Shown here one piece after another: positions 7,782 to 34,349 of a stretch of DNA of 34,349 nucleotides. Under the pieces are notes generated by a model. That model was given only the letters and a program-made list of their open reading frames with translations. It ran no database searches and had not been told where the DNA came from. Numbering within the stretch: the first letter of the stretch is position 1; every line of letters starts with the position of its first letter. Position numbers and translations under genes: made by a program. The stretch lies in NCBI GenBank assembly GCA_031289425.1, contig JAITPM010000111.1, positions 1 to 34,349 of the forward strand. The letters run 5' to 3'. The stretch is from Fusobacteriaceae bacterium. Lineage in GTDB: Bacteria; Fusobacteriota; Fusobacteriia; Fusobacteriales; Fusobacteriaceae.

Positions 7782-8966
7782 ATGAAAGTGTATTTGGATA
7801 ACAATGCTACTACTAGGTTAGATGATGAAGTCTTCAAAGATATGGTACCATACTTAACAGAATACTATGGGAACGCATCTAGTTTGCATATATTTTCAAA
7901 AGAAACTACATTAGCAATGAATAATTCTAGGGAAACTATAGCAAATATTTTAGAAATCAGCCCTGATGAGTTTATATTTACCGGTTCAGGAAGTGAAGCA
8001 GACAATCTGGCGATTAGAGGGATAGCAAAAGCCTATAAAAATAGAGGTAAGCATATCATAGCGAGCCCTATAGAACATCCTGCAATAAAAAATACTTTAC
8101 AAGATTTGATAGATGATGGATATGATGTCACTATCCTTCCTGTCGATAAAAATGCGGTTGTAGATATAAAGGCATTAAAGGACGCAATCAGAGATGATAC
8201 GATTTTAATCACTGTAATGCACGCCAATAATGAAGTAGGAACATTTCAACCCATAGAAGAAATAGCAAAAATAGCAAAAGAAAATAAAATAATTTTTCAT
8301 GTGGATGCAGTGCAAACCATGGGAAAGGTTCCTATCAAGCCAAAAGAAATTGGGATTGATCTATTATCATTCTCAGGTCATAAATTTTATGGCCCTAAGG
8401 GAATAGGCGGACTATATTGGAGAAATGGAGTGCGGTTTGGAAGTATTTTGACAGGTGGAAATCAAGAAAATCACAGAAGGCCGGGAACATCAGATGTAGC
8501 CTCTATGGTTGGGATTGCATCTGCGCTTAAAAAAGCGGTTTCTAATTTGAAAGAGGAATTTCAAAAAGAAGAACAACTGAGAGATTATTTTGAAGATGAA
8601 ATTTCTAAAAAAATATCAGAAATAATTGTAAATAGTAAAGATGTAAAAAGGCTTCCCGGAACATCAAGTATTACATTCAAATACTTGGAAGGCGAATCAA
8701 TTTTATTATCTCTAAGTGTGAAGGGAATAGCTGTGAGCTCGGGTTCTGCTTGTTCCTCTGATGAATTACAAGCATCCCATGTATTACTAGCTATGGGAAT
8801 AGAACCAAAATTTGCCCATGGAACAATAAGGTTTTCATTAGGAAAATATAATACAAAGGAAGAAATAGACTATACTATAAATACTCTAGTAGAAATAATA
8901 GAGAGACTTAGAAATATTTCACCTCTTTGGAATGAATTTAAAAACGAAAATAAGGAACGAATTTAA
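7782..8966 (+). CDS. nifS: Cysteine desulfurase, NifS/IscS family
   Basis: A 394-residue PLP enzyme that takes sulfur from cysteine and passes it as a persulfide to a scaffold for Fe-S cluster assembly. It shows YLDNNATT (4-11), the EHP histidine (H99), D175 in HVDAVQ, the PLP lysine K201 in SGHK, and catalytic cysteine C324 in SSGSACSS. The compact loop around C324 is that of group I (NifS/IscS) enzymes. The ATG at 7782 has AGGGAGTG six bases upstream; an in-frame GTG at 7773 lies inside that ribosome site and is not used. The scaffold gene nifU follows after 64 bases. Confidence 0.94.
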   Translation: MKVYLDNNATTRLDDEVFKDMVPYLTEYYGNASSLHIFSKETTLAMNNSRETIANILEISPDEFIFTGSGSEADNLAIRGIAKAYKNRGKHIIASPIEHPAIKNTLQDLIDDGYDVTILPVDKNAVVDIKALKDAIRDDTILITVMHANNEVGTFQPIEEIAKIAKENKIIFHVDAVQTMGKVPIKPKEIGIDLLSFSGHKFYGPKGIGGLYWRNGVRFGSILTGGNQENHRRPGTSDVASMVGIASALKKAVSNLKEEFQKEEQLRDYFEDEISKKISEIIVNSKDVKRLPGTSSITFKYLEGESILLSLSVKGIAVSSGSACSSDELQASHVLLAMGIEPKFAHGTIRFSLGKYNTKEEIDYTINTLVEIIERLRNISPLWNEFKNENKERI

Positions 8967-12119: not shown

Positions 12120-12577
12120 GAAATCCTCCGTTTATATTTTAAAAATTTTTCTGATAATTATTTTATTTTTATTATTTTATCATAATTATAACAAAATTTA
12201 TAGTAATATTTTTTGATTTTAAATCTATTAAATAATTGAATAGATTATAATGTATATTTATTCATTAATATATGATAAAATATAAATATACTTTTGATAA
12301 TGCAACTATGATTTTTTTTAAAGTATAAAATTAAAACTTTTTAAAATCATTTGATTATATAAAAATATATGTATTCTATGGTTGTTTTAAAATGTTGATA
12401 AATTTTTTGTATATAAATGTTTAAACGGTAAAAATAATTGCCTAAGCTATAGACAATTTGATGATTTTTGTAGTATAATGTTAAAAAACTAAATAAAAAT
12501 TTTATAAAAAAATAGATTTAAAAATAAATTTCAATCTGAATAGATTAATTACTCAGTTAACAATATAAGGGGAAAAA
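12120..12577. other. AT-rich divergent intergenic region
   Basis: A gene-free stretch of about 450 bases between the minus-strand permease and the HsdR-like gene. It holds the ribosome site of the permease and a recognisable plus-strand promoter at 12450-12479. TGAATAGATTA occurs twice (12238-12248 and 12537-12547). No RNA gene or further coding sequence is seen. Confidence 0.6.
12450..12479 (+). promoter_or_regulatory. Promoter of the HsdR-like gene
   Basis: TAGACA (12450-12455), 18-base spacer, perfect TATAAT (12474-12479). The predicted leader is about 90 bases long and ends with an AAGGGG ribosome site five bases before the ATG. The box layout is the same as at 21214-21243. Confidence 0.7.
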
Positions 12578-15500
12578 ATGCCTACAAATTTTGAGTATTT
12601 AAAGGATAAAAAAGAATACATGCTATTTTCTGATGCGTGTATAGAGACAGAGAAAGTTTTGTCGACATCTTTGATGTTAAGTATACTTGGTTGTTACGAA
12701 GCCTTGACTTTTGCTGTAAAATGGGTTTACGCAGTAGAAAATATATCTACCAGAGAAAAATATAAATCATTGGATCAATTCATATATGATCCCTTGTTTA
12801 AATCCATAGTTGATGAGCAGATATATTTAAAATTGCCATATGTAGTAAAACTTTGGAAGTTTACATTAAATTCTGAAGATGAAATTACAAAAGATGATGC
12901 AGTTTTGGTGCTTTCAATTCTATTTGAATTTGTTCTATGGGTAAGTTATATCTATGGTCTGACTTATGATGAGAAAGAGTTCAAAGAAGAGGACATACCA
13001 GTCGGGATGATAATGATTTTAAATAAGGAGATGGCATATGAGAAAAAAAGCCTTATTTTTAGAGATGAGAAAGAGAGCAGAAAATTAGAGGATCAAATTT
13101 TGAACTTAAGAAATTATTTTATTTCTAAAAAAGAGGCGAATAGAAAAAATAGAAAATTTACACCTGTTGATTTTTATAAAATGAGGGTGAGAGAATTTTA
13201 TATAGATTTGGACTTAAAATTTTCGGGATGGGATCCGGAAAGAGATGTCAAAAAAAATGTAGAATATACAATCCGAAATGGAATAGAAGGTAAAGAAAAA
13301 ATTGCATTAGATTATTTACTTGTAGGAAAAGATGGTTTGCCTTTGGCGATTATAGAAGGAAAATACAGCTTGGAAGATATAGAATATGGAAGAAAATTGG
13401 CAATAAAATATGCCAGCCATATAGGGGGAGAAACTAGACGTATCCCGGCAATTTTTTTGGTGAATGGTGGTAGTTTTTACTATATGGAGAATATAAATTC
13501 TGTTCCAAGGGAAATTGGAGGAATCTTTGATATAGAAGATCTTCATAGGATAAAAAATCAAATAAAAAGTAAAAAAAATTTAATTACAGTACCTATTGAT
13601 ACCAGAATAGCTAATATGAAATATCAAGTGGATGCAATAAAAGCTATAACTTCTGATTTTATAGAAAATAAAACAAAGAGTCTTATATTTATGGCAAACG
13701 GAAGTGTACCAAGTAGAGTCCTGTGTGGATTAATCGACCTGATGTCTAGAGCCAATTATGTCACTAGTATATTATATCTTATAGGTAGAGATGTACAATT
13801 AAAATATACCAAAAAACTATTAAAACAATTAATCTTAAGCATGTCAATTGGTGAGTATACAAAGTATTCAGATGAAACTGGAAGACTCATTATATCTACG
13901 CCGGAGGATATAATAAAAGAATTGGGAAATATAACAGGAAGCGGGGAAAAATATTTTTCTCCCGGAAAATTTGATTTGATAGTGGTTGAAAACCTATGTA
14001 GAAATACGATAGCTGCATATGGAAAAATATTCGAATATTTTGATTCGTCTGTTGTCGGAATCTCATCTTTACCAAAGGCTGATTTGGACTTAGATGTTTT
14101 TGATTTTTTTGAAACAACTAGGGAAGACAATAGATACATCTATTATGCTGAAGAAGCACTAGAAAAAGATAAGATAATAGTTCCATATAGTGTAGTCAAT
14201 ATAGAGAATAAAATGCTAGAAAATGGTATGTTGTATGATCATTTGGCTGCTGAGAATAAGAACCTTTGTGAAGAGACCTATACAGATGACCCAAGCAAAA
14301 TGTTGAATTGGGTGCCAAATCCTATGGTAGACGATTATTTAATGAATACATTTACTATAGATACTGTCTTGATGAATATTATGAAAGTAGGTATAAAGGA
14401 AGCTAAAAGTGAGACTGTAGGGAAAACAATTATCTTTGCACAAAATAAAAAACATGGAGAATTAATACTACAAAGATTTAGGATAAAATTTCCGGATTTC
14501 GGAAATGAATTTGTAAAATTGGCTTTGTTTAATGAAAGAGACTCTGTCGATGATTTTATAAATCCGAATAAAAATATGAATATATTGATAGATGTTGGTT
14601 TTGCTACAATGGGAATGAATATTCCGGAAATTTTAAATATCGTATTATTCAAAAAAGTTTACTCAAAATTTGAATTTCAACAGATGATAAGTATAGGGAA
14701 TAGAATCTGCAACAATATCACATGTATAGAGCCCAAAGAAGGGATTTATATAGGAAAAAAGAGATATTATATCTTTGATTATTTGGAAAATTTTACTTTC
14801 TTTAATGAGGATAAAAAATCAATAAAAGGAATAGAAGTCAAAAATATATCTGAGGAAATTTTTATAAAGCATGTAAGACTTATTTATTCTATTCAAAATG
14901 ATAAAATCACGGATAAAGACTATCAGGCGTTTTCCGGGAAATTAATAGACTCTATAGTTGCTAACATAGAAAATGTAAGCAAAGAGCTTACAAATGTTCA
15001 TTTACAATTGAGAAGCATAGATAGATATTGTATCAAATCCACATATACGGATGGCATAACAAAAGAAGATAAAACTGTACTGGAAACACAAATAGCTCCT
15101 CTAGTGAGAATGAAGGGTGAAGAATACAGTTTACAGTTTGATAACTTCATGTATGGATTAATGTTGGCTCAAGTGGAGGCTACACCATTTTTTATACGGG
15201 CTAAAGAGCAGTTGGGAAATATTTGTAATATGCTTTTGAAAAATGAAAACGAACCTGAAGTAAAAAATGAAATAGATCATATCCGATATTATGGCAGTAG
15301 TAAATTTTTGGATAACAGCACAATTATGGAACTGGATCAAGTGAGAATACGATTAAGAAAAATTATACAATATTTATTTTCATCTGGCTCAAATAAAGAG
15401 GAAGATGAAAAAAAGAAGAAAATAGAAAACTCAAAAGAAAAAAATGATAAAATAGAAAATGTATCAGGAGAAAATGTAGATTTTTCTGATAGTCGTGAAG

Positions 15501-15988
15501 ATGATGAGTCAGAAAATGATAATAAAATAATAAAAGAATATAAAGAGAAAATAATTGATTATATCATGACTAGTTTCCATCAGGTGGCGGTCTACAAGCT
15601 AAGGAATAATATGCCTATAATGCCCCTTGATTATCAATCATTGGATAAAATGTTTGTAAAAAGATTAGGAACAAAAAATAATTACAAGGATGCCTTTGGG
15701 GATATACCATATGGACTTTTAGTAAGAAAAATAGCCAAACTAGAAAAAGAAAGTGTAAAAGTGGCTTTTTTTGACGTCACAGAGGATAAAACATTGAATG
15801 ATGAGCAAAAGCAATTTTTAAAAGGTTTGATGAATGATGTTATAGAAAATGGATATCTAGACGAATATGATTTGACCGGTAATGAAAATGAAAAATTTTA
15901 TCAATTTAGAGAAATATTTGATGAAGGAAGACAGAAGAAAATAATAAGAATATTGAATACCATTAAAGCAAATGCAATGTACAAATAA
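12578..15988 (+). CDS. HsdR-like protein (EcoEI-type architecture) with eroded helicase/translocase motifs
   Basis: A 1136-residue open frame with the domain order of EcoEI-type restriction subunit R. Residues ~1-130 look like a DUF4145 domain. A PD-(D/E)xK nuclease has D245, E260 and K262. Two RecA-like lobes span ~345-740, an EcoEI_R_C-like region ~845-935, and an acidic linker ~945-990 leads to a terminal helical domain. The nuclease triad is kept. The motor is not: Walker A reads MANGSVPSRV (372-381) where MATGTGKT is usual, DEAH/DECH reads VENLCRN (470-476), the TATP motif reads GISSLP (494-499), and motif VI reads QMISIGNR (702-709). Motifs IV (GKTIIFA, 615-621) and V (GMNIPE) persist. 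No hsdM or hsdS is adjacent. It could be a domesticated or regulatory relative, or a decaying gene, but no frame break is seen. Confidence 0.8.
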   Translation: MPTNFEYLKDKKEYMLFSDACIETEKVLSTSLMLSILGCYEALTFAVKWVYAVENISTREKYKSLDQFIYDPLFKSIVDEQIYLKLPYVVKLWKFTLNSEDEITKDDAVLVLSILFEFVLWVSYIYGLTYDEKEFKEEDIPVGMIMILNKEMAYEKKSLIFRDEKESRKLEDQILNLRNYFISKKEANRKNRKFTPVDFYKMRVREFYIDLDLKFSGWDPERDVKKNVEYTIRNGIEGKEKIALDYLLVGKDGLPLAIIEGKYSLEDIEYGRKLAIKYASHIGGETRRIPAIFLVNGGSFYYMENINSVPREIGGIFDIEDLHRIKNQIKSKKNLITVPIDTRIANMKYQVDAIKAITSDFIENKTKSLIFMANGSVPSRVLCGLIDLMSRANYVTSILYLIGRDVQLKYTKKLLKQLILSMSIGEYTKYSDETGRLIISTPEDIIKELGNITGSGEKYFSPGKFDLIVVENLCRNTIAAYGKIFEYFDSSVVGISSLPKADLDLDVFDFFETTREDNRYIYYAEEALEKDKIIVPYSVVNIENKMLENGMLYDHLAAENKNLCEETYTDDPSKMLNWVPNPMVDDYLMNTFTIDTVLMNIMKVGIKEAKSETVGKTIIFAQNKKHGELILQRFRIKFPDFGNEFVKLALFNERDSVDDFINPNKNMNILIDVGFATMGMNIPEILNIVLFKKVYSKFEFQQMISIGNRICNNITCIEPKEGIYIGKKRYYIFDYLENFTFFNEDKKSIKGIEVKNISEEIFIKHVRLIYSIQNDKITDKDYQAFSGKLIDSIVANIENVSKELTNVHLQLRSIDRYCIKSTYTDGITKEDKTVLETQIAPLVRMKGEEYSLQFDNFMYGLMLAQVEATPFFIRAKEQLGNICNMLLKNENEPEVKNEIDHIRYYGSSKFLDNSTIMELDQVRIRLRKIIQYLFSSGSNKEEDEKKKKIENSKEKNDKIENVSGENVDFSDSREDDESENDNKIIKEYKEKIIDYIMTSFHQVAVYKLRNNMPIMPLDYQSLDKMFVKRLGTKNNYKDAFGDIPYGLLVRKIAKLEKESVKVAFFDVTEDKTLNDEQKQFLKGLMNDVIENGYLDEYDLTGNENEKFYQFREIFDEGRQKKIIRILNTIKANAMYK

Positions 15989-16062: not shown

Positions 16063-16923
16063 ATGTGTAAAAATTTTAAATTGTTTTGCATAAAATATGG
16101 ACAAAAAATACGAGATGGAATTTCATTTCGTTCTAACTGCGGTACTAAAGAAGGGTTAATTCCTGAAAACGAAAATAATACTCGACTTTTGGAAACTATG
16201 AATCAAGCTACATGCCGTCGGTCAAAAGTTCCTTTGCTCGGTGCTTTGTTCGTTTGTCTATTATTCATTGCCTCTCCTTCGTATTCAACTACCAATACGG
16301 ATACGAATTCCGGTACAAAGATATCCGATACGAATTTTATGGAATTCTGCCTAAAAGGCATGACAAATGAGGTCAAAGCTGCTATTGAGAGCGGTGTAAA
16401 TGTTAATATAAAAGATGGTGACCTATGGACACCTTTGATGTATGCTACTATATCCAAAAATCCTTCACCTGAAATAGTGGCAGCTTTAATTGAAGCTGGA
16501 GCGGACGTGAATGCTGATGTTAAGGGTATAACAGTTTTGATGAGAGCAGTTGGTAATTATAAACAAGAAATTGTTTTGCTTTTAATAAACGCAGGAGCTA
16601 ATGTAAACGCTAAGGAAGATACTTATGGGGCAACAGCTATGATGTATGCTGCTCTTTCTAACCCAAATAATAGTGCAGAAGTAATTTCGCTTCTGATTAC
16701 TGCGGGAGCAGATGTCAATGCGAAAGATAATAGGGGACATACAGCTTTGATGTATACTTCTCAGCTTCATGCAGATCCGGATGCTATATTGCTCCTACTT
16801 AAGGCAGGAGCGGATGCAAAAACAATAAATAACAGTGGAAAGCGTGCGATTGATTTAATAGAAAGTCCTTCGGACTTCCAAAACACAGAGGTCTATCGCC
16901 AGCTCGAGGCGGCTAGTAAATAA
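16063..16923 (+). CDS. Zinc-ribbon (degenerate) / transmembrane / ankyrin-repeat protein, probably acquired
   Basis: A 286-residue protein with an N-terminal zinc-ribbon-like segment (residues 8-28), one membrane helix (56-74), a Thr/Asn-rich spacer and then about five to six ankyrin repeats (89-285) with the usual TPLMYA..., AL(I/L)xAGADVNA pattern. The ribbon should carry two CxxC pairs; here they read C9-I-K-Y12 and R23-S-N-C26, so it probably cannot hold zinc. The repeats would face the periplasm if the helix acts as anchor or signal. GC content (about 38-45% in sampled stretches) and codon use differ from the AT-rich neighbours. Similar ribbon-helix-ankyrin proteins are common in spirochaetes such as Treponema, a possible source. 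GGAG lies nine bases before the ATG. Confidence 0.8.
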   Translation: MCKNFKLFCIKYGQKIRDGISFRSNCGTKEGLIPENENNTRLLETMNQATCRRSKVPLLGALFVCLLFIASPSYSTTNTDTNSGTKISDTNFMEFCLKGMTNEVKAAIESGVNVNIKDGDLWTPLMYATISKNPSPEIVAALIEAGADVNADVKGITVLMRAVGNYKQEIVLLLINAGANVNAKEDTYGATAMMYAALSNPNNSAEVISLLITAGADVNAKDNRGHTALMYTSQLHADPDAILLLLKAGADAKTINNSGKRAIDLIESPSDFQNTEVYRQLEAASK

Positions 16924-16954: not shown

Positions 16955-17296
16955 ATGTCTATGTTTTTCTGCTTTCTAGAATATATATATGGGATTTGTT
17001 ATTTTTTATTAAAAAGATTGCCTGATGATAGGACAGGAGGATATTTATTATTCTTAAAAGATAAAGTTTTCACTGATCAAATCATGTTCTTTACTGGAAT
17101 AATAGCAGCTTTTGGAGTCATATTATCATTTTTAAAACTTATTTTTGCTAAAAAAAGAAAGCCCAAAATACTGACACTAATCTTGCATTGTGGTTATTTG
17201 TATTTATATATAAAATATTTTTTAGAAATGCCTGTAACCCAAATATTTGTATTTATAGGGGATATAATTGTTTATATAAAAATGTTGTTTAAATAG
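16955..17296 (+). CDS. Small hydrophobic membrane protein, unknown function
   Basis: A 113-residue protein not recognised as any family. It has about three to four hydrophobic segments (roughly 3-18, 43-63, 72-89 and 95-112) with a Lys/Arg-rich loop (64-71, AKKRKPK), and is likely an inner-membrane protein. GGAGG lies four bases before the ATG at 16955; an in-frame ATG at 16961 gives a ten-base spacing and is an equally good start. It ends eight bases before plsY and so is probably co-transcribed with plsY and gpsA. Confidence 0.6.
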   Translation: MSMFFCFLEYIYGICYFLLKRLPDDRTGGYLLFLKDKVFTDQIMFFTGIIAAFGVILSFLKLIFAKKRKPKILTLILHCGYLYLYIKYFLEMPVTQIFVFIGDIIVYIKMLFK

Positions 17297-17304
17297 GAGA
17301 AAAT

Positions 17305-17904
17305 ATGAAAACATTATTATTTGCTATTATTGCATATTTTTCTGGAGCCATACCAAGTGGTGTATGGATAGGTAAGTTTTTTAAAAAAATAGATATAAGA
17401 GAACATGGAAGCAACAATACCGGAACTACCAATGCATATAGGGTTTTAGGAGCCAAATATGGTATTATAGTATTGTTGATGGATGTTTTGAAGGGATTTT
17501 TTCCTCTTTTTTTAGCTAATTATTTTGGAGTACAAGGAACCCATCTCATTGTCATTGGAATGATAGCAATAATTGGGCACACATTTTCTTGTTTTATAAA
17601 TTTTAATGGGGGAAAGGGTGTTGCTACAAGTATGGGTGTATTCTTATTTTTAATTCCCGGAATAACAATAATTTTAGTAGGAGTATTTATTGTTATAGTT
17701 TATTTTAGTAAATACATTTCTGTTGGATCAATTGTTTGTGCATTATTACTGCCAATACTCACTTGTTTTTTTAGAATAAGAGCAGGAATACCAAGAATAC
17801 CTCTTATAATAATTGCAACAATCATAGGAATATTCGTTGTATATAAGCATAGAGCTAATATATTAAGATTAAGAGACGGAACTGAAAACAAATTTAAATT
17901 ATAA
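17305..17904 (+). CDS. plsY: Glycerol-3-phosphate acyltransferase PlsY
   Basis: A 199-residue multi-pass membrane enzyme that transfers an acyl group from acyl-phosphate to glycerol-3-phosphate, the first step of phospholipid synthesis. Conserved loops are SGAIPSGVWIGK (13-24), HGSNNTGTTNAYRVLG (34-49) and NFNGGKGVATSMGV. The length is standard. AGGAG precedes the ATG. It sits directly before gpsA, which makes its substrate, so the pair forms a short lipid-precursor unit. Confidence 0.94.
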   Translation: MKTLLFAIIAYFSGAIPSGVWIGKFFKKIDIREHGSNNTGTTNAYRVLGAKYGIIVLLMDVLKGFFPLFLANYFGVQGTHLIVIGMIAIIGHTFSCFINFNGGKGVATSMGVFLFLIPGITIILVGVFIVIVYFSKYISVGSIVCALLLPILTCFFRIRAGIPRIPLIIIATIIGIFVVYKHRANILRLRDGTENKFKL

Positions 17905-17913
17905 GGAGGGTAC

Positions 17914-18915
17914 GTGGAAAATGTAGTTATTTTGGGTGCCGGAAGTTGGGGAAGTGCATTGGGAATTCTGTTGGGATGGAATGGACATAAGGTCAAGATA
18001 TGGGATTATAAAAAAGATAGAGCAGAGCAAATAGAGAAAGAAAGAGAGAATAAAAGGTATTTGCCGAATATAAAACTTCCGGATAATTTACATTTTACGG
18101 GAGAAACGGAAGGGCTTTTAAAAAATGTTAAATATATTATATTTTCTGTCCCTTCTCAAAAACTTAGGGAAGTAGTAAAAAAATTCTCCAATCAAATATC
18201 TGATAATGCTATCATGGTAAACACGGCCAAGGGAATAGAAATATCCACCGGAATGCGGTTGTCGGAAGTAATTAAAGATGAAATTTTTGGAAAATATCAT
18301 AAAAATATAGTGGTTCTCTCAGGTCCCACTCATGCGGAGGAGGTAGCACTGGGTCTCCCCAGTACGATTGTCGCTTCCGGAGAGATAAGTAGAGCCAAAA
18401 AGATACAAAAATTATTAAATTCAGATAGCTTTAGAGTGTATTTAAATGATGATATGATGGGTGTGGAACTGGGGGGTGCAGTAAAAAATTGTCTGGCAAT
18501 AGGAGCAGGGATATCTGATGGATTGGGGTATGGAGATAACACAAAGGCTGCTATTATTACGAGAGGAATAGCTGAAATGGGAAGGTATGGTAAAGAATTG
18601 GGAGCTAAAGATATCACATTCTCAGGACTTAGCGGAATAGGAGACTTGGTAGTAACTTGTACGAGTAAACACAGTAGAAATAGGCATGTGGGAGAATTAC
18701 TCGGAAAAGGTGAAAAAATAGATAAAATTTTATCTGATATGGTGATGGTTGCGGAGGGTGTACCGACAATAAAAGCAATACATGAAAGTGCTAAAAAATT
18801 AGGTGTTTCTATGCCTTTGATAGAGGGAATATACTCTGTAATATATAAGAATGCTGATGTTAAGAGTATTGTGACGGGTCTTATGAGACGAGCTACTAAA
18901 GAAGAATTTTATTAA
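17914..18915 (+). CDS. gpsA: Glycerol-3-phosphate dehydrogenase [NAD(P)+]
   Basis: A 333-residue soluble enzyme that reduces dihydroxyacetone phosphate to sn-glycerol-3-phosphate. It has the dinucleotide-binding loop GAGSWGSA (8-15), a VPSQ-containing second strand region, LSGPTHAEEV, the catalytic lysine in GGAVKNCLAIGAG, and GDNTKAAIITRG and GLSGIGDLVVTC in the C-terminal domain. The start is GTG, supported by a strong AAGGAGGG. It supplies glycerol-3-phosphate to PlsY, encoded nine bases upstream. Confidence 0.95.
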   Translation: MENVVILGAGSWGSALGILLGWNGHKVKIWDYKKDRAEQIEKERENKRYLPNIKLPDNLHFTGETEGLLKNVKYIIFSVPSQKLREVVKKFSNQISDNAIMVNTAKGIEISTGMRLSEVIKDEIFGKYHKNIVVLSGPTHAEEVALGLPSTIVASGEISRAKKIQKLLNSDSFRVYLNDDMMGVELGGAVKNCLAIGAGISDGLGYGDNTKAAIITRGIAEMGRYGKELGAKDITFSGLSGIGDLVVTCTSKHSRNRHVGELLGKGEKIDKILSDMVMVAEGVPTIKAIHESAKKLGVSMPLIEGIYSVIYKNADVKSIVTGLMRRATKEEFY

Positions 18916-18933
18916 TGAGAAAAGAGGTATCTT

Positions 18934-19755
18934 ATGGAAGAACGGGATCTTATTTCTCTTTATCTGGAAGATATAAGAAAATACAAAGTCTTGGATAAAG
19001 AGGAAGAATTTGAATTATTAATAAAAATAGAAAGTGGAGATGTTGAAGCTAAAAATCAACTTATTTTATCTAATTTAAGATTGGTTGTAAATATTGCCAA
19101 AGGATATACAAAAAAAGGAATGAGTTTTATAGATCTCATAAGTGAGGGAAATTTTGGACTTATACATGCTATCGAAAAATTTGATAGCAGTAAAGGATTC
19201 AGGTTTTCTACTTATGCTGTGTGGTGGATAAAACAAGCAATTAGTAAAGCTGTTATTAATAAGGGGCGGGATATAAGGATTCCGTCCTATAGATATGATT
19301 TGCTAAATAGGGTAAATAGGTATATAATGTCTAAGGTGAAAGAAGATGGTTTCTATCCTTCAATAGAAAACATATCCAATGAATTGGATATAAATCAAGA
19401 TAAGGTCGAAAAAATATTACTGGATTTTCAAGACACCATGTCATTGAATATGTCTATTGGGGATGATATATTTTTGGAAGACACACTTATAAATGATGAT
19501 ACCGGTTCTTTGGAGGACAAGGTTATAGAAGAAATCGGAAGAAGACAGATAATCGATATGGTCAATGGACTGAATGATAGAGAAAAAGAAATTTTAAAAT
19601 TGCGATTTGGACTTGACGGATATGAAATACACACGTTAGAAGAGATAGGACTTGAATTCAATATAACCAGAGAACGTGTAAGACAAATAGAAAAAAGAAC
19701 GTTACAAAAACTTAGAACAAAATATTCCAAGGAATTAGAGGACAGAATTTTATAA
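18934..19755 (+). CDS. Sigma-70 family RNA polymerase sigma factor, short (group 2-like)
   Basis: A 273-residue sigma factor with region 1.2 (about 4-36, SLYLEDIRKYKVLDKEEE), regions 2.1-2.4 (44-110, including FSTYAVWWIKQAISKAV), region 3 (~112-165) and region 4 with a helix-turn-helix (TLEEIGLEFNITRERVRQIE, 234-253). It lacks region 1.1 and the long non-conserved insert of a primary RpoD, so it looks like an RpoS/RpoH-style alternative or a very compact primary factor. Which of these cannot be decided here. The ATG has AGAGG upstream. It lies 18 bases after gpsA and 70 bases before dnaN. Confidence 0.88.
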   Translation: MEERDLISLYLEDIRKYKVLDKEEEFELLIKIESGDVEAKNQLILSNLRLVVNIAKGYTKKGMSFIDLISEGNFGLIHAIEKFDSSKGFRFSTYAVWWIKQAISKAVINKGRDIRIPSYRYDLLNRVNRYIMSKVKEDGFYPSIENISNELDINQDKVEKILLDFQDTMSLNMSIGDDIFLEDTLINDDTGSLEDKVIEEIGRRQIIDMVNGLNDREKEILKLRFGLDGYEIHTLEEIGLEFNITRERVRQIEKRTLQKLRTKYSKELEDRIL

Positions 19756-19825
19756 CAAACAATTTAATTATTAATGTTTTCTCAAAACATAAGAAAACTA
19801 AAAATAGATCCTAGGAGGAAGAAAA

Positions 19826-21070
19826 GTGATATTAAAAATTAATAGGGAAAATTTTTTAAATGGTATAAAGACAGTAGAGAAGGCAATAGTTGAAAATAAA
19901 GTGAAACCTATTATTTCGTGTGTATACATGGACGCAGGGAAAAATGAATTATTGTTCTGTGGAACTAATTTAGAGACTACTATTATTACAATGATTCCTT
20001 GTGATGATATTATAGAAGGGGGAAGAATAGTTTTTCAGCATCATATGGTGGCAGAATATCTAAATGAGCTAAATGATGTGGATATAACTTTGAGTATAAA
20101 TGAAGATAATAATCTTTTGATTGAAAATGAGGATTCTTCATCAGAATTTGCATTGATGAACGCTGATGACTATCCAGCATTACCGGTAGACATAAATTTT
20201 GATGAAAAAGTTGAAAATTTTAGCACTTCTGCTAGGACATTGGCAGATGTATTGGAAAAAGTAAAATTTTCAGCATCTGTTTCTCCTGAAAATGTATCCA
20301 TCAATTGTGTAAGGATGGAAAGTGAAGGAAACACTATAAAATTCATATCTACAGACACGTTTAGATTGACGTATTTAGAAAGCGAAATGGATAAAATAAA
20401 TGAGCCAATAAACTTGAGCATTCCATTTTCTACTGTGGATTCTTTAGTAAAATTATTTAGAAATAACGAAGATTTAGAAGTGAAATTTTATTGGATGGAT
20501 GGAAAAATATTCTTTAAATTGGGATATACATTGACAATAAGTAGAGTCGTAGATATGACTTTCCCAAATTATAGAGCTATTTTAGAAAGTGGAAAATACG
20601 ATAAAAAATTAACAATAAAAAATAGTGAATTTTCTAAAATATTAAAAAGGGTGTCAATATTTGTGAGAAATAGTCAAGAGGCCAAATATGGGGCAACTAT
20701 TACATTTTCCGGCTCATCAATGGTAATAGAAGGAGCAAACGATATAGCGAAAATTAGTGAATCTGCCGAAGTCAATTTTATTGGAGATCCTATAAAAATT
20801 GCACTTAATGCTAAATTTATATTAGATTTTGTACAAAATTTGGATAAGGAAGATAATATTTCTATGGAATTAGTAAGTTCTGCGAATTCTGTCAAAATCA
20901 CAAGTGGATTTGAATCTCATAAAAACCGCCAAATTATTGGTAGTTCGGAAAATGATAAAGAAATTGAAAATAATGAAGAAAAAGAAACAGAGAAAAAAGA
21001 AGTTACACCTTATTTTACGGAGAAAAAATATATTTATATAGTAATGCCATTATCATTAAAAAATAAATAG
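19826..21070 (+). CDS. dnaN: DNA polymerase III sliding clamp (beta subunit)
   Basis: A 414-residue protein of the DnaN family, the ring that tethers the replicative polymerase to DNA. Three clamp domains can be followed: ~1-120, 125-245 (with STDTFRLTY and an ADDYPALP-type strand before it) and 250-414 (FPNYRAILES, NAKFILDFVQ). It ends with YIYIVMPLSL, the family's terminal strand. An acidic/Lys-rich insertion of about 25 residues (ENDKEIENNEEKETEKKE) sits just before this strand. The start is GTG with AGGAGG upstream. It is not beside dnaA, its usual neighbour; a second clamp paralogue elsewhere is possible. Confidence 0.88.
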   Translation: MILKINRENFLNGIKTVEKAIVENKVKPIISCVYMDAGKNELLFCGTNLETTIITMIPCDDIIEGGRIVFQHHMVAEYLNELNDVDITLSINEDNNLLIENEDSSSEFALMNADDYPALPVDINFDEKVENFSTSARTLADVLEKVKFSASVSPENVSINCVRMESEGNTIKFISTDTFRLTYLESEMDKINEPINLSIPFSTVDSLVKLFRNNEDLEVKFYWMDGKIFFKLGYTLTISRVVDMTFPNYRAILESGKYDKKLTIKNSEFSKILKRVSIFVRNSQEAKYGATITFSGSSMVIEGANDIAKISESAEVNFIGDPIKIALNAKFILDFVQNLDKEDNISMELVSSANSVKITSGFESHKNRQIIGSSENDKEIENNEEKETEKKEVTPYFTEKKYIYIVMPLSLKNK

Positions 21071-28694: not shown

Positions 28695-28724
28695 AAAGAC
28701 CTCTAGAAAACTAGAGGTCTTTCT
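28695..28724. terminator. Strong bidirectional terminator
   Basis: A perfect 12-bp stem AAAGACCTCTAG / CTAGAGGTCTTT with an AAAA loop, flanked by A-rich and T-rich sequence. It serves the NtrC-like gene on the plus strand. The integrase stop codon (minus strand) lies inside its right arm. Confidence 0.9.
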
Positions 28725-29925
28725 TTATGCTCATTGTCCACTTTTTGTCCACGATTTTTGGAATTGGTGGGCAGGATAATTTTTCTAAAATTTCTATGGC
28801 CTCTTTTTCCATTGTATTGGTAACGTGGGCGTATATGTCCAATGTTGTCTTCACACTGGCGTGACCCAGTCGTTCTTGGATGTATTTGATATTTGCACCG
28901 GATGCTACTAAGTCTGAGGCTGCTGTATGCCTCAGGTCATGGAAAGTGAATTTAAAATTTATCATTTTGGAAATAGTAGGTAAAATTTTTTTTGAAAATG
29001 TGATCATATTCATCATTCCGTTTTCTCGGACTATAACCAAATTAAGGTTTTTATTGCCTCCCAATGTGAGTGTGCCGTGGGCATTATTATAATAACTATA
29101 GGAATTTTTATATATTTTTTTATTTTCTTCTTGAAATAATTTAAAAGAATATAGTTCTCTTGATAAATATTTATTTATGGCGATAGTTCTATTGGAAGTC
29201 TGTGTTTTTGGAATTCCAAGATGATATTTTTTACCTTCCAAAACCGATAAGGTTTTTTCTATTGTAATCGTGTTTCTTATCAAATCTACATTATTCCATG
29301 TCAGACCAAAAACCTCTCCCAGTCTCATACCGCAATAATAACCTAGCAAAACAGCTATTTTTACATAAGGCCTTTTGGCAAGTAAAATAATTTTTGAAAA
29401 AATTTCTAAATCTATGTATCTATTTCTTTCTTTTTTTTGTTCTTTTGGGATTTTTAAAAAACATGCAGGGTTATTTTGTAATAATCCTAGTGGATATATA
29501 GCATATTCCAATGTCGAAGAAAGTAGAGTTTTGATATTGGTTTTGTATCCGTAACTTCCGCTAAGACTGTATATGAACTCTTGCAATAATTTTGGAGTTA
29601 GGGATTTGATTCGTTGGTTTCCAAGGAATGGTTTTAAAAATTTTCTAATGATATGATGATAGAATTCTTGCGTTGTGACCTTACAATTTATCTTTGCATA
29701 TTCTGATAACCAACGATCCAATAAGTCGCTATAAGATATTTCAGGAGGCGTAAAAATGAGACCGTTATTGTTGTATTCGGATAGAGCTTTTATGCCTGCG
29801 GCATAGGCTTCTTTTTTGGAGATAAAACCACTTTTTGAAAATTGCTTTCTTTTACCGCTGATTTTTGCTATTTCAAATCTAAATTCCCATTTATTGCCTC
29901 TTTTTCTTATCACAATTTTGGACAT
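28711..29925 (-). CDS. Tyrosine recombinase (phage/ICE-type integrase)
   Basis: A 404-residue integrase with an N-terminal arm-type DNA-binding domain (about 1-55, KWEFRFE...GKRKQFSKSGF), a SAM-like core-binding domain (~62-155) and the catalytic domain with R201 (GMRLGE), K240, H329-xx-R332 (HDLRHTAA), H355 (LGHASVKTT) and nucleophile Y365. All active-site residues are present. The last residues run into a terminator. No excisionase, relaxase or phage gene is seen in the window, so it is a lone integrase, a deletion remnant, or the edge of an element that continues to the right. GGAGAG lies upstream on the minus strand. Confidence 0.92.
   Translation of the reverse strand: MSKIVIRKRGNKWEFRFEIAKISGKRKQFSKSGFISKKEAYAAGIKALSEYNNNGLIFTPPEISYSDLLDRWLSEYAKINCKVTTQEFYHHIIRKFLKPFLGNQRIKSLTPKLLQEFIYSLSGSYGYKTNIKTLLSSTLEYAIYPLGLLQNNPACFLKIPKEQKKERNRYIDLEIFSKIILLAKRPYVKIAVLLGYYCGMRLGEVFGLTWNNVDLIRNTITIEKTLSVLEGKKYHLGIPKTQTSNRTIAINKYLSRELYSFKLFQEENKKIYKNSYSYYNNAHGTLTLGGNKNLNLVIVRENGMMNMITFSKKILPTISKMINFKFTFHDLRHTAASDLVASGANIKYIQERLGHASVKTTLDIYAHVTNTMEKEAIEILEKLSCPPIPKIVDKKWTMSIKKDL
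28735..28752. repeat. 18-bp direct repeat, copy A (candidate att or arm site)
   Basis: TGTCCACTTTTTGTCCAC, inside the 3' end of the integrase gene (codons for V392-T397). It repeats at 30227 with one mismatch. Each copy is itself two TGTCC half-sites around CTTTTT or GCTTTTT. Confidence 0.6.
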
Positions 29926-30662: not shown

Positions 30663-31048
30663 AGTTTTAAATTTTAATTTTACCTTTAAAAATAATCAAT
30701 GTTTTGATAATATTTTATTTTAACATGATAATAATTGTATGTATTTATTCACAAAGAAAAGCAAAATAAATATATGTTAAAAAAATGGCAAAATTTCTAA
30801 ATTAAAAATAGACATATCACAAATTTTATGATAATATTGTTTTATAAGTTCTCTATTATAACTATATAGAGATAAAAATAAATATAGTGAAAATTGATGT
30901 TATAAGAGCAATGTTTAATTATTTTATAATATGAATATAGACAAAATATGAAATTATTTATTTTTGTAATAAAAAAATATTTAGCAGTATTTATAGCAAA
31001 TAAAAATTAGAAATAAAAACAGAAAATATATAGGAGAAGGTGTGTAAA

Positions 31049-34000
31049 ATGGGAAATAATGTAAAAAAATTGACAGAAAAATCTTTAAAAGCATTCTTGA
31101 AAAAGAAGAAGGTAGGGTTTACTGTTGCGTTGATTACTGCATTTATGATAACGGGAGGACTGACTCTGGGGTCTACGGCAGAACTGCAAACACAAGTTGA
31201 GATTACTCACCAAGAATTACTTGATAAGATAGTTTCTCAAAAGATGGAAATTGAGCAGATGATTAAGGATAATGAAGATAAATTGTGGAAATTGAAAAGT
31301 GAACAAATGAGTAGGGTAAGGGAGGGGGATTGGTATAGTAAACCTTGGTATCCTAGTTATTTTGGTTCGCTCATCGGGTGGTATGAGTCTTCAGATAATG
31401 TTGGGAAGGATTGGAAGGGAAGTATTAGGGGAGATACTAGGATGGATAAAACCAGATTAGTATTTGATGAAGCTTTGTATAAGGTTGCTGGGGGATATTT
31501 ATCTAGTGGATGGATTAATAATACGAAAGCGTATGATGAGAATACTAATGTGTATGATTATGAGGATAAGATTATTATATTGCCTGTGGTAAGGGTACCT
31601 GAGTTGACGAAACCTGTTGTACCGACAGTTGCGATTACTATGCCGGCTACACCGGCAAAGGTGAATACACCGATTGCGTCTGTGCCTACAATATCTCCTA
31701 TTGATGTGACAATTGTTACGCCATCAGTTGTGCCACCATCGGCACCGGGTACGATTAATGTAGTAGCACCGACTTTGACACCTATAGTTGTAAATGACCC
31801 TGGGATTAATCCTGTGGCACCGAATATTGTTGTTAATCCTGCTGAGCCGGTGTTTAGTATAACACCTAATACGCCTGGTTTTAGTATGGCAGTTAAGGAA
31901 GTGGGTGAGATACCTACTATTACGGTTGTACCGCCTAGTGTGGATCCGGATTTGCCTGTACCTAATGCTTCACCATTTACTGATTTTCAATTTCAGCCAT
32001 CTAGTAACGCTGACACATCTACTACTAGTCAGACTAATACAGGACGAATACTATATTCGGGATATAACCCAACAAATTCTCCCATTGGTACTGTTCTTTC
32101 TAATACCATTGGAGATGTATCAATAAAATATGGAATAAATGGCAGAATGCCGGCAGTTACATATCTAGCGAATAATTCAGCCGGAAGTTTAACAGGAGGA
32201 ACTTATTATATTGCAGGAGGAAATGCAGGAACATATAATGCCAAAACTGGTCAAATTGGAATACATATTGTGTGGAATGCTACAATAAAAAATGTTACTG
32301 GGCACCTTTATGGAAAAGCTGCATTTATATCTGTTGAAACTTGGCATGGGGGAAAAATAACATTAGATAATGTTACGATTTCAACAATAAAAAATCAGGA
32401 TAATACAATATTTTATATATACCCTGCAGGTTACCAGGCAATAAATACTAATCACAATGCACATAATCAAAGAGGTGAATTTTCTGGAACAATCAATGCA
32501 ACAATTCAATCAAATAGAAATTCAATTTATGTACAATCTGGTATTTCAGGAAGCTATAAGATAGAAAGTAAAGGTACTTATATATTAGAAGGATTTGGAA
32601 ATACTGTATATTCTGGATTAGGATATTCTCCGGATTATAGTAAGTTAAGTGGAGTATCTCCTGATGGAATAACATATGGTCAAATAAACGGAAGTGTTGA
32701 TATGAAACCTTCTTTGCAATTCATAACGGCTCCAGAGTCGTATGGTGATGAGAATGTAATTATATTTTTTAATACTAAGATGAATACTGCTAGTTTGCCA
32801 GCTATTTACAATGGTACAGGAACTATCGCTACGGATATTAAGCCTTTTATTGGATTTTATCAAGGTCAGATTTTTGCATCTGCTAAAATAGGTGAGAAAT
32901 TATCTACTATAACTAGTTCCACTAAACAAGATTATGGAAATATATCAGGAAATAGCGATGTATATGTTGACTCGAATGTTGGTATTTATTCAAAATCTGG
33001 ACAAAGAGAAGAAATAGCCACTAATGCGGATTTAGGTGCTCCTGACCGTAACCCTAGCACTATGGCAGATTATAAATTGGATTCTATACATAATTTAGAG
33101 ATTGGTCAGATTGACATTAAATTTGGTAAATTTTCAAAAAATGGAGTTATGATTGCATCAGAGAATGGAACTGTTATTGACATTGCAAAAGAAGCAATGG
33201 GTATTACTTCAAAAGCGGGTATAGATCAGTTACCAGTTGTAGGAACTACTACTCTAAAATACTCAAGTTGGTTTTCTGATGGTACTGATAAGATTGCTAC
33301 CACAGAAGCAAATGCTTCCATAAACACAATAATAGCCTATGCTTCGGGTGCTTTTAGTAATACTATACACGGACTTGGAACAGTTATAGGAACTACTCTA
33401 GATGGCAAGGGAAGTGAAATTAACATACATATACCTTTGGGAATGGTATCACATGGTGGAGATACTAGTTCAGAATATGCTATAGCATATTTTGCTAAAG
33501 AGGGTGGAATAATAAATCAAAAATCTACGACTCTATTTAATGATGGAACGACTTTAGAGACAGCAACTACTGTGGCAAGGGGATATAAATCAATAATAGC
33601 ATATGCTGATGGAACTGGTTCAATAGTTGATGTTGATGGAAGTATTAAGGCAGTAGATGGCAATGTATCGTTAGCATCAAACAAATATCAAAATATTGGG
33701 GCTTTTGCATCAAGCGGAGGAGAAATTGTTGTTACTGGCAAGGCAGAAATAAATGGAATAGGGGCTCTTGCAGACGGAAATAATTCAAAAGTTGAAATGG
33801 AAAATACATTAAATATTGTAAATAGTGGTTTAAAAGGTGCAGTAGTTGCTATGAATAATGGCCTAATAGAATTTGTTGGTACCATAAATCATGGAGTGCC
33901 TGGAGCACCTGGTGACTATAGCGAGATTGTTCCATTCTATGCAGATTCAACAGGAAAGATTGATTTTACTGGAACAACAACGATTAATATGTATAAGGGT

Positions 34001-34349
34001 ATTCTCCTTGAAGGGACAATGGTTGATTATTCAAATGCTTCAAGTACATCGGCTGAAATTACAGCCGCTAGATATAATGATATGCAAAATGTAAGTGTTG
34101 TTTTGCAAGCTAGTGGAGTAAATCTAGGTGTATTCGATAATTTCGCTGCAACATATGATACTGAAGTATCTTATTTAACTAGTTTAGCTTTATTTGCTAA
34201 ATTAGGAAGTTTGACAAATGCTGGTACATATACATATGACAGCTTTCTAATAGATGGGACTTTAAATGTAACAACAAATGGAACTATAAGTTTAGATTCT
34301 AATCCTTTCAAAAATATAACAATGCAAAATGAAGTAGTTACTTTTAGTT
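31049..34349 (+). CDS. Giant autotransporter adhesin, N-terminal 1100 residues (3' end outside window)
   Basis: The frame is open from ATG 31049 to the window end with no stop. The N-terminus has a basic region and hydrophobic signal (MGNNVKK..., about 1-44) of the fusobacterial autotransporter type, a predicted coiled coil (about 46-85, LQTQVEITHQELLDKIV...), a Trp/Tyr-rich block (WYSKPWYPSYFGSLIGW, ~90-107) and a Pro/Val/Thr-rich linker (~178-313). It then runs into a Gly/Asn/Thr-rich passenger of beta-helix character with recurring IIAYASG or IGAFASSGGEI rungs. The C-terminal barrel that would secrete it lies beyond the window. A role in adhesion or surface structure is inferred from the family. 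AGGAGAAGGTG precedes the start. Confidence 0.85.
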   Translation, partial: MGNNVKKLTEKSLKAFLKKKKVGFTVALITAFMITGGLTLGSTAELQTQVEITHQELLDKIVSQKMEIEQMIKDNEDKLWKLKSEQMSRVREGDWYSKPWYPSYFGSLIGWYESSDNVGKDWKGSIRGDTRMDKTRLVFDEALYKVAGGYLSSGWINNTKAYDENTNVYDYEDKIIILPVVRVPELTKPVVPTVAITMPATPAKVNTPIASVPTISPIDVTIVTPSVVPPSAPGTINVVAPTLTPIVVNDPGINPVAPNIVVNPAEPVFSITPNTPGFSMAVKEVGEIPTITVVPPSVDPDLPVPNASPFTDFQFQPSSNADTSTTSQTNTGRILYSGYNPTNSPIGTVLSNTIGDVSIKYGINGRMPAVTYLANNSAGSLTGGTYYIAGGNAGTYNAKTGQIGIHIVWNATIKNVTGHLYGKAAFISVETWHGGKITLDNVTISTIKNQDNTIFYIYPAGYQAINTNHNAHNQRGEFSGTINATIQSNRNSIYVQSGISGSYKIESKGTYILEGFGNTVYSGLGYSPDYSKLSGVSPDGITYGQINGSVDMKPSLQFITAPESYGDENVIIFFNTKMNTASLPAIYNGTGTIATDIKPFIGFYQGQIFASAKIGEKLSTITSSTKQDYGNISGNSDVYVDSNVGIYSKSGQREEIATNADLGAPDRNPSTMADYKLDSIHNLEIGQIDIKFGKFSKNGVMIASENGTVIDIAKEAMGITSKAGIDQLPVVGTTTLKYSSWFSDGTDKIATTEANASINTIIAYASGAFSNTIHGLGTVIGTTLDGKGSEINIHIPLGMVSHGGDTSSEYAIAYFAKEGGIINQKSTTLFNDGTTLETATTVARGYKSIIAYADGTGSIVDVDGSIKAVDGNVSLASNKYQNIGAFASSGGEIVVTGKAEINGIGALADGNNSKVEMENTLNIVNSGLKGAVVAMNNGLIEFVGTINHGVPGAPGDYSEIVPFYADSTGKIDFTGTTTINMYKGILLEGTMVDYSNASSTSAEITAARYNDMQNVSVVLQASGVNLGVFDNFAATYDTEVSYLTSLALFAKLGSLTNAGTYTYDSFLIDGTLNVTTNGTISLDSNPFKNITMQNEVVTFS

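Follow-up and report, generated by a model that had tools for sequence, protein, structure and literature searches.

Type I HsdR is a partner-dependent ATP motor. The described proteins closest to the gene considered here are the EcoEI/EcoAI-like HsdRs (type IB, DUF4145-containing), which are collinear with it over the full length, share the EcoEI_R_C domain and show 25-31% identity; the canonical members compared were those of G033, G051, G010, G049, G063 and G078 and that of the viral contig L053. From these the present protein, referred to below as pseudo-HsdR (gene hsdR-psi), differs by the absence of the ATPase motifs, an altered nuclease site and a genome without hsdM/hsdS, and also by a fixed core locus and a conserved dedicated promoter with a dyad. 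In a structure search, pseudo-HsdR had the nuclease and RecA-like fold in common with EcoR124I HsdR (PDB 2w00, 4be7, 6h2j) and the Vibrio HsdR fragment 3h1t. EcoR124I HsdR binds ATP and cleaves DNA, whereas the corresponding ATP-site residues are missing in pseudo-HsdR. AddB and RecC are inactivated helicase-nuclease folds that serve in Chi recognition and scaffolding. RecC contains helicase-like domains and recognises Chi (PMC7644769). The likeness of pseudo-HsdR to these two is one of logic only, i.e., a nuclease/helicase fold minus its motor that is kept as a non-catalytic subunit, and no homology is claimed: RecC/AddB are SF1 proteins, pseudo-HsdR belongs to SF2/HsdR, and no RecB/RecD-like active partner was identified for it.

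Gene, domain layout and predicted fold

The window (the whole stretch of 34,349 nucleotides that was analysed) is part of a 2.45 Mb draft genome (98% complete) of a Fusobacteriaceae bacterium, whose genus is sampled by three species (G000, G001 and G002). The gene hsdR-psi (12578..15988, +) starts with ATG and is an intact frame of 1136 codons without an internal stop, as an earlier reading of the sequence alone (the sequence-only reading) had it; the strings MANGSVPSRV, VENLCRN, GISSLP and QMISIGNR and the residues D245/E260/K262 quoted there are each present exactly. The product is a full-length EcoEI-type HsdR homologue and the single match of its own sequence within the window genome. Pfam detected EcoEI_R_C (E=2e-9), ResIII (E=1e-6) and, weakly, Helicase_C, and the PADLOC model REase_I matched residues 201-937 (E=7e-67); the NCBIfam model of EcoAI-type HsdR yielded 84.6 bits, far under its cut-off of 550 bits.

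The domain order of a functional HsdR is present, with all domains on the forward strand (+): an N-terminal helical, DUF4145-like domain (residues 1-140, 12578..12997), a PD-(D/E)xK-like domain (residues 196-335, 13163..13582), two RecA-like domains (13583..14137 and 14138..14812), a helical domain (residues 746-935, 14813..15382) and, after a low-complexity linker, EcoEI_R_C (residues 986-1136, 15533..15985), which Pfam also matched in both orthologues described below. The DUF4145 part named in the sequence-only reading holds by alignment but not by direct detection: Pfam did not find it in the window protein, but found it in the aligned N-terminus of the canonical protein L006 (residues 30-122, 5e-5).

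Structure prediction, which that reading had proposed as a check, gave a full-length AlphaFold model with a poor global arrangement (pTM 0.39) and a better core model of residues 190-760, comprising the nuclease and RecA-like parts (pTM 0.81, pLDDT 80). The best PDB match of the core model was the HsdR fragment 3h1t (E=1.5e-15), followed closely by EcoR124I HsdR and SF2 enzymes. Since the alignment behind the model comprised nine sequences, seven of them canonical, the prediction leans towards the canonical fold. As modelled, the HsdR fold appears to be retained overall, with the ATP-site residues gone.

Loss of the motor motifs and of the partner subunits

The two sister species G001 and G002 carry syntenic full-length orthologues of 1138 and 1144 aa, which are 67% and 65% identical to the window protein. 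All three species have motifs I, II, III, V and VI destroyed. In the alignment of the window, G001 and G002 proteins, Walker A (13691-13717 in the window) reads GSVPSR/GSAQGR/GSAQDQ instead of GSGKTR, the DExH motif (13982-14005) ENLCRN/DNVCRN/DNVCWN instead of DESHRS, and TATPK, in the same first RecA-like domain, has become SSLPK/SPLPK/SSLPR. In the second RecA-like domain, motif V is TMGMNIP/SMGMIIP/SMGMVIP instead of DTGIDVP, and motif VI (14678-14713) QMISIGNR/QMMSVGNV/QMMSLGNA instead of QMIGRGTR. The set that marks a functional HsdR (Walker A GKT, DEAx/DExH, TATP and the motif VI arginines) is therefore found in none of the three orthologues. Every motif is retained in all six canonical fusobacterial relatives, which are 25-29% identical to pseudo-HsdR, and those with sufficiently read neighbourhoods adjoin HsdM and/or HsdS. 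Regarding the 268 columns invariant in the six canonical HsdRs, 121 are kept and 147 lost in the pseudo-clade; in 298 columns the pseudo-clade is invariant for a residue absent from the canonical set. Within the helicase core the losses concentrate in the ATP motifs, where 12 of 46 canonical-invariant positions are kept versus 58 of 123 in the rest (Fisher p=0.014).

A living but divergent motor, binding ATP through non-canonical residues as some divergent P-loop enzymes do, would agree with the SF2 fold that appears in the model and with the well-kept motif IV-like and Ib-like segments. However, Lys and Thr of Walker A, Glu and His of the DExH motif, TATP and the arginines of motif VI have been lost, and the former P-loop varies among the orthologues with no fixed replacement motif, so that this explanation is very unlikely.

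The partner subunits are missing as well. The sequence-only reading had asked whether hsdM/hsdS lie elsewhere in the genome; in the three genus genomes (drafts, 92-99% complete) no HsdS (PF01420) and no HsdM was found, the PF02384 matches being of the TaqI_C type or weak, nor was there a further full-length HsdR. The possibility that these PF02384 matches (508-515 aa, one per genome) represent a degenerate HsdM was rejected, as they are NPPY methylases with Eco57I and TaqI_C domains that adjoin murJ. This solitary adenine methylase (L025:3396-4922, -; L026:9076-10623, +; G001:C100:2009-2707) is 78% identical between G000 and G002 and is a candidate conserved orphan (regulatory) methylase. As a separate observation, another family of the order carries canonical type I loci in which hsdR is accompanied by several hsdS genes and by fragments of hsdS (L015:3530-4695, L016:5429-7167 and 8262-8870, L008/L019:8498-9568), which suggests shuffling of specificity genes; the hsdR of G046 is a fragment only, broken by a stop.

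Selection and descent

The G001/G002 comparison is the sole unsaturated pair, the pairs with the window being saturated at synonymous sites; it gave a Nei-Gojobori dN/dS of 0.093 for pseudo-HsdR (dN 0.175, dS 1.89). The values of the neighbouring genes in the same pair were 0.046 (sigma factor), 0.108 (small membrane protein), 0.117 (gpsA) and 0.172 (dacA), and the constraint on pseudo-HsdR falls within the range of these neighbours. For the window pairs, third-position differences are about fourfold those at second positions. GC3 is 0.25, 0.63 and 0.72 across the three orthologues and tracks host composition, at a protein identity of 65-73%, and the frame is open throughout although the GC content of the locus is 30% in the window, 49% in L014 and 52% in L013. 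When neutral drift of an orthologue was simulated 300 times, even 0.1 substitutions per site left no frame intact; the open frame is thus not due to chance. It may be mentioned separately that sister species of one genus here lie about 20 GC points apart at this locus, and that GC3 shifts accordingly.

The sequence-only reading had named two marks of a recently dying restriction subunit, a dN/dS near 1 and same-locus orthologues with normal motifs plus hsdM/hsdS. Instead, dN/dS is 0.09 and the orthologues share the broken motifs and have no hsdM/hsdS, so that its view of a repurposed protein rather than simple decay has held up. A pseudogene or sequencing error would account for the loss of all ATPase motifs and of both partners, but it is hardly compatible with intact frames in three species, the low dN/dS and a conserved promoter and ribosome binding site; a dying gene was therefore rejected and is extremely improbable.

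Among the domains of pseudo-HsdR, dN/dS is lowest in the nuclease-like one (0.045 for G001/G002, compared with 0.069 for the N-terminal domain), which is therefore probably still in use for something. All canonical relatives aligned share D245 and E260 with the three pseudo-HsdRs. The statement that the nuclease triad is kept proved true of the window protein only, because K262 is Arg in both orthologues. In addition, all three pseudo-HsdRs have Gly at A261 and Lys/Lys/Arg at E201, a residue that never varies in the canonical HsdRs, and Q274 of QxxxY is Leu in the window protein and Gln in both orthologues. The catalytic D...E-x-K with QxxxY of a functional HsdR is accordingly not conserved across the clade (K/R/R for the lysine, L/Q/Q for the glutamine). 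In EcoR124I, K167A, equivalent to a mutant of the catalytic Lys, abolishes cleavage (PMC2602864), and Q179A/Y183A delays cleavage of the second strand (PMC4454674). The window protein, with K262 kept and Q274 lost, and its orthologues, with the reverse, form a natural separation-of-function series for the non-motor surfaces of HsdR. These data bear on the proposal, also made in the sequence-only reading, of an ATP-independent nuclease, in which the motor is dead and the PD-(D/E)xK site cuts DNA or RNA, perhaps under control of the N-terminal domain or a membrane partner. The proposal keeps some ground because of the invariant D245/E260, the lowest domain dN/dS and, in the window protein, K262, but it is weakened by the changes at K262 in the orthologues, at E201 and A261 in all three and at Q274 in the window, two of which correspond to the sites of the EcoR124I mutants; it is regarded as unlikely.

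In a maximum-likelihood tree the pseudo-clade (support 100/100) was nested inside the canonical HsdRs, with the viral contig L053 as sister (98/94); in L053, hsdM, hsdS and hsdR are all present and the motifs are intact. The stem of the pseudo-clade measures 2.29 changes per site and its tips 0.14-0.18, versus a stem of 0.17 and tips of 0.12-0.20 for gpsA of the same genomes. A long stem followed by strong constraint agrees with neofunctionalisation; part of the stem may reflect time since horizontal transfer instead of a burst, because the donor lineage is unsampled.

The pseudo-type was detected in three of 98 Fusobacteriota genomes, all of one genus, and was absent from the other 95; the single match in wider searches of genome contigs was the G001 genome itself. 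Viral contigs searched with the pseudo-type query yielded no relatives. Relatives from phages and plasmids do not exceed about 33% identity to pseudo-HsdR, and those full-length relatives on viral contigs that were checked for motifs are canonical. A prophage or other mobile origin of the locus was rejected on these grounds.

Core locus, promoter and proposed role

The gene order in the genus is dacA - hsdR-psi - small membrane protein - plsY - gpsA - sigma - dnaN. Shared neighbours, which had been suggested as a check, were found in all three species, dacA and the gene of the small membrane protein among them. The downstream core cluster plsY-gpsA-sigma factor-dnaN (17305..21070, +) is a conserved feature of the family. 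In other genera the position upstream of plsY is mostly taken by a different gene, of about 450 aa, and hsdR is absent from it. Between gpsA and dnaN, the sigma factor gene of the window (18934-19755) encodes an RpoD/RpoS-like protein of 273 aa that is conserved family-wide.

The small membrane protein (16955..17296, +; 113 aa in the window, 110-113 aa across the genus) is hydrophobic, shows 47-72% identity among the three species and is a candidate partner encoded in the same operon, with a gap to hsdR-psi of 11-22 bp in G001 and G002. It was convincingly matched in three of 98 Fusobacteriota genomes; elsewhere there were two very weak matches, one of them with stops. For the operon and partner argument the three related genomes count as one evolutionary event. 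In the window species only, an ankyrin-repeat gene (16063-16923) separates hsdR-psi from the gene of the small membrane protein; its product combines a hydrophobic segment with an N-terminus that resembles a degenerate zinc ribbon. A transporter gene lies upstream in the window.

The location bears on a possible role as a defence component, be it a sensor, an effector or a decoy for anti-restriction proteins (Ocr, ArdA) that bind type I enzymes. Pseudo-HsdR descends from a defence protein, whose overall domain layout it has retained, and its nearest structures include EcoR124I-Ocr, which reflects the shared fold only. However, the gene is inherited vertically in a core lipid/replication locus at core-gene-like rates, no mobile or defence genes adjoin it, phage-pressured decoys would be expected to turn over fast, and the genus genomes hold no type I system to protect. 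Instead of a defence island or mobile element with a patchy distribution, the gene occupies one and the same core locus throughout the three species. The effector and decoy ideas of the sequence-only reading thus gained no positive evidence, and a defence role is distinctly unlikely.

The promoter assigned to the gene in that reading was also recovered. It is of the sigma-70 type, TAGACA-18-TATAAT (12450..12479, +), matches the consensus at 11 of 12 positions and is the best of the region; its -35 and -10 boxes align and are conserved in the three species, whose loci have 30-52% GC. An operator-like dyad, TTGcCTA-N5-TAGACAA (also written TTGtCTA-N5-TAGACAA; 12438..12456, +), overlaps the -35 box TAGACA, and a strong ribosome binding site, AAGGGG (12567..12572, +), is identical at the three loci. 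The upstream regions of the three species share AAAAATAATTG(T/C)CTAANCTATAGACAA, of which the dyad is the first part, followed by the TATAAT box and AAGGGG. In each of the three genomes the pattern TTGNCTANNNNNTAGACAA matched without mismatch at the hsdR-psi locus only; regarding a dyad regulon, no other exact sites were found in these genomes, and single-mismatch sites occurred at the level of a reversed-pattern control. Because promoter and dyad are conserved in three species, the sequence points to an expression of hsdR-psi that is maintained and probably regulated.

Pseudo-HsdR probably has a new job, because its ATP engine is destroyed in three species and its conservation is nevertheless about that of the neighbouring core genes. 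The preferred reading, with a rough probability of 0.55, is that of an exapted HsdR which acts as a non-motor scaffold or regulator and has been fixed by purifying selection in a core operon. An EcoEI-like (DUF4145-containing) HsdR, or a copy of it, would have lost HsdM/HsdS and its ATP motor, and with the motor ATP hydrolysis and translocation, in the lineage ancestral to a single Fusobacteriaceae genus; after a burst of change it would have become fixed under strong purifying selection in the core chromosomal operon. By analogy with RecC, the nuclease/SF2 fold, together with the helical domains at both ends of the chain, may form a scaffold or regulator for nucleic-acid or protein binding, and the small membrane protein possibly anchors it to the membrane. 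A more specific version is offered tentatively, namely a two-gene system derived from HsdR in which a motor-dead scaffold and a dedicated membrane protein, under an operator-controlled promoter, would act on nucleic acid or the envelope. If so, a domesticated restriction subunit would have turned into a housekeeping or regulatory protein, in place of restriction. Among the open-licence papers searched, none describes a domesticated motor-dead type I restriction subunit, and only two mention orphan or inactive HsdRs of known systems. The finding of general interest is that the whole 1136-residue body of an HsdR is under core-gene-level selection after the loss of its ATPase motifs and both partner subunits.

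Apart from this locus, the window contains a phage-type integrase gene (28711-29925, -) followed by a frame of 1103 residues (31040-34348, +) that has no Pfam match and runs off the contig; the two possibly belong to an integrated element.
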